Assembly: GCA_000525675.1 (NCBI GenBank)
Contig: CP002190.1
Location: forward strand, 1,054,001-1,118,000
DNA length: 64,000 nt
Direction of reading: 5' to 3'
Source: Bdellovibrio bacteriovorus W
Lineage (GTDB): Bacteria > Bdellovibrionota > Bdellovibrionia > Bdellovibrionales > Bdellovibrionaceae
This document shows positions 4,859 through 59,184 of this stretch, piece after piece (within the stretch, counting starts at the first letter, position 1; each line of letters opens with the position of its first letter). The position numbers were made by a program, and so were the translations under genes. A model generated the notes under the pieces. It had not been told where the DNA came from. It worked only from the letters and a program-made list of their open reading frames with translations, and searched no databases.

Positions 4859-5537
4859 TGAAGAAGTCTTTTTAAGAGCGGTTGATATTCATAAATCTTA
4901 CGAACAGGGTTCGGGTAGTTTAGATATTCTGCGTGGCGTGAGTTTAGACATCGGCAAAGGAGAAGCTCTTGCAATTCTTGGGGCTTCCGGTGCTGGCAAG
5001 AGTACACTTTTACAGATCATGGGAACTTTGGATCGCCCTTCAGCAGGTCAACTTTTCTGCGAAGGAAGAGATCTTTTAGCTATGGGTGATGAAGAGCTTT
5101 CCCGTTTTCGTAATTCTGAAATGGGTTTTGTTTTTCAGTTCCATCATTTGTTAGCAGAGTTCAACGCGCTCGAAAATGTTATTTTGCCAGCAAGAGTGGC
5201 AGGCGACTCTTTGAAGGAAGCTAAAGAGCGTGGCGCTTATCTTTTGGAATTTATGGGTCTTGCTGAAAGACAAGATCACTTCCCCAATCAGCTCTCTGGC
5301 GGGGAGTTGCAGCGAGTGGCCATTGCGCGCGCCTTGATGCGTCAACCTAAAATCCTATTTGCTGACGAGCCTACCGGGAACTTGGATTCTCAGACCAGTT
5401 TAAAAATTCAAGATCTGTTTTTCCGTCTTCGCGACGAGATGAATTTAGCACTTGTCGTGGTGACGCATGATCTGACTTTTGCGACGAGGTTTCCCAAAGT
5501 GTATCAAATGAAAGACGGCCACTGGAGCGGGCGCTGA
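4851..5537 (+). CDS. lolD: Lipoprotein-releasing ABC transporter ATPase LolD
   Basis: Cytoplasmic ATPase that powers lipoprotein release with LolC/E. It is 228 residues with Walker A GASGAGKST, Q-loop FQFHHLLAEF, signature LSGGELQRVAIARAL, Walker B ILFADEPTGNLD and switch histidine VVVTHD. The HHLL stretch after the Q-loop is typical of LolD/MacB ATPases. It overlaps the permease gene by 8 nt. The last three codons and the stop (AGC GGG CGC TGA) are also the left arm of a dispersed hairpin repeat (5526-5653), so the C-terminus may have been set by insertion of that element. Confidence 0.93.
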   Translation: MNNEEVFLRAVDIHKSYEQGSGSLDILRGVSLDIGKGEALAILGASGAGKSTLLQIMGTLDRPSAGQLFCEGRDLLAMGDEELSRFRNSEMGFVFQFHHLLAEFNALENVILPARVAGDSLKEAKERGAYLLEFMGLAERQDHFPNQLSGGELQRVAIARALMRQPKILFADEPTGNLDSQTSLKIQDLFFRLRDEMNLALVVVTHDLTFATRFPKVYQMKDGHWSGR

Positions 5538-5653
5538 AAAGGGTCCGTCTGACTGCGTTGTCAGGCCTCGTCCTCACTCCGGCGTACATTGAGTACGCCT
5601 ACGTTGCGGGCGAAACCTTCCGCCTTGCATACGAACCCTTTTGAGCGCCCGCT
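5526..5653. repeat. Structured dispersed repeat, copy 1 (after lolD)
   Basis: An 84-bp core (5547-5630) is 79/84 identical to the core at 58202-58285. It contains three hairpins: CTGAC/GTCAG (5549-5564), GGCGTAC/GTACGCC (5581-5599) and GGCGAAA/TTCCGCC (5609-5624, one mismatch). The core is enclosed by inverted arms 5526-5548 and 5631-5653 that match at 21 of 23 positions. The arms overlap the end of lolD, including its TGA stop. The arm sequence is different in copy 2 but is self-complementary there too. No ORF in it looks real. Confidence 0.85.
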
Positions 5654-5960
5654 TGCGAAGTGTTCGTGTGGGGTTTGTTTTTTCCTCATCTAGTTTGTGG
5701 TTCCAATTTTTTAAAAAAGTGACGGTTGGGTATTTAAGCACAAGGATTCTCCTCGTTGCCGTTTTGTTTCATTGCCCACGGCTCATCGTGCTTAATTGTT
5801 GGGCGACAGAGAGTTGGCTTTCTGCTGCGACTGGCAAGAATTTCAGAGCTAAACCGAGTATAGGCTAGACAGGACCTTTGTCTTGCGTTACGATTCCTGA
5901 ATTAGTTTGTAAGTATCGGTAAATCTTATGGATTTCCAAAAACGACTGAGGATGTAGGTC
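5654..5960. other. Gap before bamA with a nested inverted repeat
   Basis: No convincing gene. It holds TTTTTTAAAAAA at 5707-5718 and a perfect 8-bp inverted repeat, TTAAGCAC (5734-5741) and GTGCTTAA (5788-5795), enclosing a smaller GCCGT/ACGGC pair. It could be a structured bamA leader or a regulator site. I could not define a promoter with confidence. Confidence 0.4.
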
Positions 5961-57731: not shown

Positions 57732-58181
57732 ATGCAAAAGATCAATGTAAAAATTAAAAAATTAAGCAACTTCCGTGGCGAGATTCCTCAATACCAATCT
57801 GCAGGTGCAAGTGGTTTTGATGTTCGTGCACAACTAGCAGGTCCCGTTCTTTTGAATCCAGGAGAGAGAGCCCTTATTCCCACAGGTTTAAGTTTTGAAA
57901 TCCCTGTAGGATACGAAATTCAATGCCGTCCACGCAGTGGTTGGGCAGCGAAGAATGGCCTTTCTGTTTTAAACACTCCAGGCACTATTGATGCTGACTA
58001 TCGCGGTGAAGTAAAAGTTATTCTCGTGAACCTTGGTAACGAAGCTGTTGCTATCAACGATCAAGATCGTTGCGCACAGTTCGTGATCGCTCCTGTCATT
58101 CATGCAAACTTTGAAGTTGTTTCTGAGCTTGCGGAGTCGGAGAGGGGAGCGGGAGGGTTCGGCTCCACCGGTCACCGCTAA
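57732..58181 (+). CDS. dut: dUTP pyrophosphatase
   Basis: 149 residues, normal for the trimeric enzyme. All five motifs are present: SGFDVRA (1), PRSGWA (2), GTIDADYRGE (3), DRCAQFVIAP (4) and RGAGGFGSTG (5). It hydrolyses dUTP to keep uracil out of DNA and supplies dUMP for dTMP. GGGAGCTTGAG precedes the ATG. The last base of its stop codon is the first base of the repeat arm at 58181. Confidence 0.96.
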   Translation: MQKINVKIKKLSNFRGEIPQYQSAGASGFDVRAQLAGPVLLNPGERALIPTGLSFEIPVGYEIQCRPRSGWAAKNGLSVLNTPGTIDADYRGEVKVILVNLGNEAVAINDQDRCAQFVIAPVIHANFEVVSELAESERGAGGFGSTGHR

Positions 58182-58308
58182 GAGATCGGTGAAAAGCGGG
58201 TGTCTGACTGCGTTGTCAGGCACCGTCCTCACTCCGGCGTACATTGAGTACGCCTACATTCCGGGCGGAACCTTCCGCCTTGCATCCACCCACTTTTGAC
58301 CAATCTCT
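58181..58308. repeat. Structured dispersed repeat, copy 2 (after dut)
   Basis: Core 58202-58285 matches the core after lolD at 79/84 positions, with three hairpins at 58204-58219, 58236-58254 and 58264-58279 (all perfect here). Arms 58181-58202 and 58287-58308 match at 19 of 22 positions. Two of the three mismatches become G-U pairs in a minus-strand transcript; the third (G opposite G) is the same one seen in copy 1. Confidence 0.85.
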
Positions 58309-58424: not shown

Positions 58425-58470
58425 TTCTATTTCAAAATAAAATCGTGGATTTTTTAATTAAAATGCGGCT

Positions 58471-58589
58471 GCGAGGTAATCCCCATTAAATGGGATCTCC
58501 GGCAGGCATGGATGCCTGCGACCGCCAGAGGCGGTCAAGAAGCCGGCTGAGCCTGGATGGCGTGTCCCATTTAATGGGGATTGCCTTGC
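58471..58589. repeat. Cloverleaf-like palindromic element
   Basis: Arms of 25 nt (58471-58495 and 58565-58589) match at 23 positions, and both mismatches are G-U pairs on the plus strand. Inside are two perfect hairpins, GCAGGCAT/ATGCCTGC (58502-58519) and GACCGCC/GGCGGTC (58520-58536), and a self-complementary GCCGGC. It lies between the convergent genes dut and the Yip1-like gene. It is unrelated in sequence to the repeat at 58181. Confidence 0.8.
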
Positions 58590-58611
58590 GGGCGGTTTGC
58601 TTAGTTAGAGC

Positions 58612-59184
58612 TTAGAGGCGATCGAGGCGGGAGATATCGATGCGGTTCCAGAGCCAAAGAATGAAGACGATGGCGAAAAGAATTGTCACGAGGCGAATGG
58701 ATTTTCTTTTTTCTAACTGAAAGTTTTCAGTTAAGCCAACAGCCATAAGAAGGGCAGTAAAGGCAAAGCCTACCAATGTTATCGGTGGGATCACTTCAGA
58801 GCCAATTTGAAAAATAAAAAATGGGATATTTGCAAAAATCAAAAGTGTAAAGATCTTGCGGAATGAATGCGTGTGCTTTTCATAGACTTGAAAGTAATAG
58901 TAAATGAAAAGAGCTCCTACAAATGTCGTTGCCGCACTGACTAGAGGGGAGATGATCAATCCCCCCATGATTCTGAAGAAATTAGGTGGGATAAGCCCCG
59001 TAATGACTCCTGAGATCATCGACAAACAAACCAGTGTAATGATCAGAACAGGCCAGTTCCAGTTTGGAAGAACTTTGATGCGTTCGATAGGCTGTTTGAG
59101 ATATTCAAAAATATATTGCAATACCTCGCGCGCATTTTCAGACGGTTGCTTATCCTTCGGTGTCACATCTCGATAATCATTCAT
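58612..59184 (-). CDS. Yip1-domain-like membrane protein
   Basis: 190 residues with five predicted transmembrane helices (about 47-68, 72-98, 103-120, 125-155 and 165-180) after a 40-residue polar N-terminus. The loop FFRIMGGLIISPLVSAATTFVGALFIYYYF is typical of bacterial Yip1-family proteins, whose function is unknown. It is a lone gene convergent with dut, with palindromic elements beyond its stop. Confidence 0.6.
   Translation of the reverse strand: MNDYRDVTPKDKQPSENAREVLQYIFEYLKQPIERIKVLPNWNWPVLIITLVCLSMISGVITGLIPPNFFRIMGGLIISPLVSAATTFVGALFIYYYFQVYEKHTHSFRKIFTLLIFANIPFFIFQIGSEVIPPITLVGFAFTALLMAVGLTENFQLEKRKSIRLVTILFAIVFILWLWNRIDISRLDRL

Follow-up and report, generated by a model that had tools for sequence, protein, structure and literature searches.

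A folded repeat between two convergent genes of Bdellovibrio bacteriovorus W belongs to a genus-wide family with a conserved hairpin core and a stem of free sequence

The window analysed here is a 64,000-nucleotide stretch of the Bdellovibrio bacteriovorus W genome (G000), a single contig of 3,006,992 bp in which copies of the repeats were located by search. A dUTPase gene on the + strand (57732–58181) and a Yip1-domain gene on the − strand (58612–59184) converge on a gap holding two structured repeats: an element at 58471–58589 (+ strand), assigned to what we call family A, and a family B element at 58181–58308 (− strand; fold z −6.2), which is divergent to the first. A previous interpretation of the window from its letters (the sequence-only reading) had correctly placed the family A element between convergent genes and had called the two repeats unrelated; their sequences are indeed different, but their build is similar.

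The family A element is closed by a long stem, P1, whose arms (58471–58495 and 58565–58589) pair at 25 of 25 positions, including two G-U pairs (G58473–T58587 and T58477–G58583) and no true mismatch, as had been described. Pairing continues outward with few mismatches to about 58466 and 58594, and the whole palindrome including this outer stem (58466–58594, + strand) is an inverted repeat with 30-nt arms (87%). It was matched by both covariance models used in this work, by R1 at genome positions 1112467–1112593 (133.9 bits) and by R2, in its core, at window positions 58491–58569. The + strand RNA of the element was predicted to fold at −86.6 kcal/mol (z −8.9), a value equalled by none of 200 shuffles, and the fold of the opposite strand also beat shuffled sequences (z −7.1). 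A direct scan for stems with at least 24 of 25 pairs and a loop of 60–80 nt found this one alone in the 64-kb window, and five dinucleotide shuffles yielded no such stem.

Inside P1, the helix P2 joins CCGGC (58499–58503) to GCCGG (58542–58546); in other copies a C-G pair changes to U-A, giving TCGGC/GCCGA (consensus YCGGC and GCCGR). P2 lies around two perfect hairpins, P3 (58502–58519, loop TGGA) and P4 (58520–58536, loop AGA), both indicated by the fold and by covariation. Each has 7 bp, where 8 and 7 bp had been proposed. A further hairpin, P5 (58551–58561, GCC-TGGAT-GGC), was recognized from the alignment of copies and from covariation. The palindrome GCCGGC noted in the sequence-only reading is present at 58542–58547, but P5 and the CCGGC/GCCGG pairing had been missed. 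The order of the core is therefore P2 around P3 and P4, then P5, then P1, which makes two stacked three-way junctions. Across copies, the loops of P3 and P5 are related (TGGA, CGGA, ACGA and AGGA types), and that of P4 mostly has three bases, for example AAA or GAA. Comparison of copies also identified a 3′ tail (58590–58608, + strand) common to most close copies in the same genome and ending in CTTAGTTAG. A C-rich unpaired stretch of the type AATCCCYCGC recurs 3′ of the long stem in many copies (e.g. L132, L151, L160 and L166) and beyond it lies a short outer stem around TTCGAA; together these are possibly the true end of the element.

Six copies were found in the B. bacteriovorus W genome by blastn. 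R1 was built from five of them, and the covariance models brought the number of distinct family A loci to about 14–15 (about 14 with R1). In the genus, R1 matched in 23 of 24 Bdellovibrio genomes, and R2, a further model restricted to the core, with P1 left unpaired, found 2–31 copies per genome in 22 of 24. At the family level, R2 matches were seen in 23 of 66 genomes (2 of 20 genera) and at the class level in 25 of 144, where the additional matches came from one genus of the same family (four matches) and from two weak cases. A pattern scan of named genomes returned Bdellovibrio records plus two likely chance matches (Frankiaceae and Novosphingobium). The element is thus one copy of a family scattered through nearly all Bdellovibrio genomes and almost none elsewhere in the class; far from being unique, or absent or unstructured in relatives, it has structured counterparts in 22 of 24 genomes of the genus. 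In agreement with the earlier failure to recognize a named family, Rfam gave no match to the element at the gathering score, and no description of such repeats in Bdellovibrio was found in open-access papers; family A has apparently not been described before.

Conservation resides in the hairpin core, and the sequence of P1 differs from copy to copy yet stays paired. Among 94 aligned copies, changes on both sides were observed for 41 of the 42 consensus pairs. In 30 diverse cores 96.3% of cells were paired, and both-side changes numbered 141, compared with 41 ± 4.5 for shuffles and 17–21 for slid controls. The median aligned length of the two P1 arms was about 62 nt in the R1 set and 53 nt in the R2 set, whereas arms cross-paired between different copies, as a control on the R1 set, aligned over only about 12 nt. 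In R2 cores, which were chosen without regard to P1, arms of at least 31 nt were present in 49 of 50. G-U pairs are few across the stem as a whole. The arms were also compared with neighboring DNA, and the longest exact matches were no better than those of shuffled arms, which rules out an origin of the arms from flanking sequence. The folded element is a real, maintained structure.

To determine which strand folds, isolated G.U and A.C mismatches were counted using a strand-neutral alignment, separately for the inner ∼30 bp and the outer stem. Selection acting on double-stranded DNA alone would give equal numbers of G.T and A.C, since the two are equivalent when the strands are exchanged. A count over all positions looked symmetric, and splitting by distance from the core confined the bias to the inner ∼30 bp: in the R1 set, G.U and A.C numbered 56 and 9 in the inner stem and 19 and 27 in the outer stem (summed bins). 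Because R1 itself favors G.U, the count was repeated on copies found by R2, selected without the stem, and gave 30 versus 8 (inner) and 8 versus 26 (outer). That inner mismatches are mostly G.U and seldom A.C indicates that the fold of the + strand is tolerated or selected; judged from these mismatches, it is the + strand that folds, and RNA and single-stranded DNA would both fit. Orthologous copies showed 42 compensated changes in the inner stem, together with 15 single G.U, four A.C and 37 other changes. Transversions made up 18 of the 42, and in the pair L114/L138 the arms diverge faster than the flanks. Taken together, these two observations suggest that arm-to-arm copying may also contribute to the pairing of the stem.

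Evidence for dispersal came from comparison of loci within and between genomes. Paralogues in one genome share 155–170 nt including the arms, with unrelated flanks (L016/L019, L154/L167, L162/L167 and L060/L144), and the P1 arms are inverted repeats within each copy, with no arm sequence common to copies. One site is occupied by the element in genomes G013 and G010 but lacks it in G016, and in G015 other DNA has taken its place; the flanks of this best case were too diverged to read, and neither a target-site duplication nor a clean empty site was obtained. Many other family A sites are common to G013 and G015, which points to slow movement. Where two copies lie within about 0.75 kb of each other, they are divergent (16 of 16 pairs), and long palindromes near family A lie exclusively on its 5′ side (14 versus 0).

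Based on dispersal, stem-inclusive duplication of paralogues, presence and absence at a site, core covariation, strand-specific folding and the divergence of close pairs, we propose, with a probability of roughly 0.5, that family A is a slowly moving non-autonomous mobile element whose core is recognized as a folded single strand. A protein would recognize the core once one strand folds, either as single-stranded DNA or as RNA that is copied back, and the same protein would paste the unit beyond gene ends, favoring head-to-head pairs. The stem would stay paired through a fold requirement near the core and probably also through arm-to-arm copying during replication. The mobile palindrome suggested in the sequence-only reading is thereby backed by dispersal, duplication of whole units and presence/absence between species, and that reading is supported in part. 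Several observations speak against mobility. Family A has no bias relative to replication direction (55 versus 44, with the record start assumed to be the origin), unlike single-stranded DNA elements of the IS200/IS605 type; the strand-specific tolerance of G.U would also suit an RNA maintained for a function of its own; and, besides the lack of a target-site duplication or clean empty site and the many sites shared by G013 and G015, no mobilizing enzyme for family A was found in a search that covered Y1_Tnp.

Gene contexts were examined for 86 non-redundant copies with clear neighbors, using genes called by a codon-based method. Copies lie between convergent genes in 30 cases, between genes of the same direction in 26 (++) and 21 (−−), and between divergent genes in nine, and there is more room upstream than downstream of copies. 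The commonness of convergent and rarity of divergent contexts would suit a transcription terminator or 3′-end block serving both convergent genes, as had been suggested for this locus, but ++ and −− contexts are taken as equal and the neighboring genes often have their own intrinsic terminator between gene and element. Moreover, T-runs precede the hairpin and A-runs come after it, whereas a terminator has the opposite order, and neither a GC hairpin with a direct U-run in the window gap nor a U-run after the element hairpin on either strand was found. A terminator role was rejected on the random orientation to genes, the reversed run order and the neighbors' own terminators, and we regard it as improbable. 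The main rival to mobility is that the copies are dispersed, independent small RNA genes, in which the + strand RNA would fold into a cloverleaf and bind a protein, the long stem would protect the RNA or be processed by RNase III, and divergent pairs would share a promoter region. Strand-specific tolerance of G.U, the dense core covariation, the random orientation to neighbors, the greater space upstream than downstream of copies and the restriction of long palindromic partners to the 5′ side are all in line with this proposal. Against it, no enrichment of a sigma-70 signal was seen upstream of copies, and the stem overall holds few G-U pairs. Published attack-phase small RNAs overlap just one of the 14 copies in G001, which we take to be B. 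bacteriovorus HD100. That copy lies inside the attack-phase RNA APsRNA6 (1,338,787–1,339,441; PMC3627812), which favors a small RNA, but the element sits on the complementary strand of this transcript. On balance we consider independent small RNA genes unlikely, though well ahead of the other alternatives. In several species the small SRP RNA gene is preceded, at a distance of about 70–100 nt, by a family A copy; in L056 (G011), at 501–787, the Rfam match RF00169 belongs to this neighbor and not to the element, and similar flanks occur in L038 and L146.

A REP/REPIN family mobilized by RAYT transposases would account for the inverted repeat pairs, and RAYT-like Y1 genes are present in 21 of 24 Bdellovibrio genomes, with up to 12 in each. 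However, no Y1_Tnp gene was detected in the B. bacteriovorus W genome at E ≤ 0.001. The published description of RAYT genes has two inverted REPs flanking them in every case (PMC2817692), but this arrangement was seen neither in that genome nor at 20 RAYT loci elsewhere, 19 of which had no element or long palindrome nearby, with one having an element 1.8 kb away. REPs are, furthermore, short palindromes of 20–40 bp in high copy, and family A elements are far longer (∼125–170 nt), with 2–31 copies. RAYT mobilization is accordingly hard to sustain, being marginally less probable than a terminator. The RAYT-like genes of Bdellovibrio (L178–L197) have no evident long flanking palindromes. It could also be argued that the copies are passive, functionless palindromes, preserved as perfect inverted repeats by nothing more than template switching at replication forks, as the compensated transversions and the faster change of arms than flanks would allow. 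This leaves the covariation, the strand-specific G.U bias and the dispersal unexplained; as a full account it is refuted by the conserved core, and we give it the lowest probability of all.

Family A works like ERIC, REP or MITE repeats, yet fails the REP/RAYT features tested. The ERIC/IRU repeats of enterobacteria are ∼125 nt long, palindromic, intergenic, dispersed and non-autonomous, as is family A; ERIC copies, however, are alike in sequence along their whole length, whereas the arms of family A share no sequence among copies, and its core forms a multi-branch junction. With REP, BIME and REPIN sequences family A shares an extragenic palindromic nature, inverted pairs and complementary changes that preserve pairing, but it differs in size, in being multi-branched and in its lack of RAYT association. 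Rickettsia palindromic elements and bacterial MITEs are small structured mobile repeats without genes. Family A is likewise small, structured and gene-free, and the MITE features of dispersed non-coding copies and site polymorphism were both observed, but its copies have no common terminal repeat and no related autonomous element was found when Y1_Tnp was searched. Known small bacterial repeats are recognized via shared sequence; what family A copies have in common is a small junction core, and only complementarity holds the long stem, whose sequence is rewritten from one copy to the next. The family can thus serve as a natural test between two causes of maintained pairing, selection on a folded strand and arm-to-arm copying at replication, and the predatory bacteria gain a first catalogue of structured repeats.

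Family B is a structured repeat of ∼140 nt with about 54 copies in the B. bacteriovorus W genome and is present in 21 of 24 Bdellovibrio genomes. Like family A, it is genus-wide, has its own core on a stem and tolerates G.U on one strand (isolated mismatches on the minus strand, 14 G.U versus 0 A.C); it differs in core sequence, in being often tandem and in its orientation. Among the best 150 matches listed, all 103 of 103 copies in seven genomes oppose replication, a count that includes non-independent tandem copies and assumes the record start to be the origin, and the family thereby marks replication direction without exception among the copies listed. Families A and B occur close together at four places (L001, L005, L013 and L018) and are divergent in all four. 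It is possible, but in our view rather doubtful, that the two form an undescribed class of folded Bdellovibrio mobile elements with sequence-free stems and single-strand recognition, in which B would be inserted with absolute polarity relative to the replication fork and a novel enzyme would do the mobilizing. In the B. bacteriovorus W genome, a gene running in the opposite direction commonly has its stop codon 4–33 nt from the 3′ end of family B, and another copy is present in the window at 5524–5662 (− strand).
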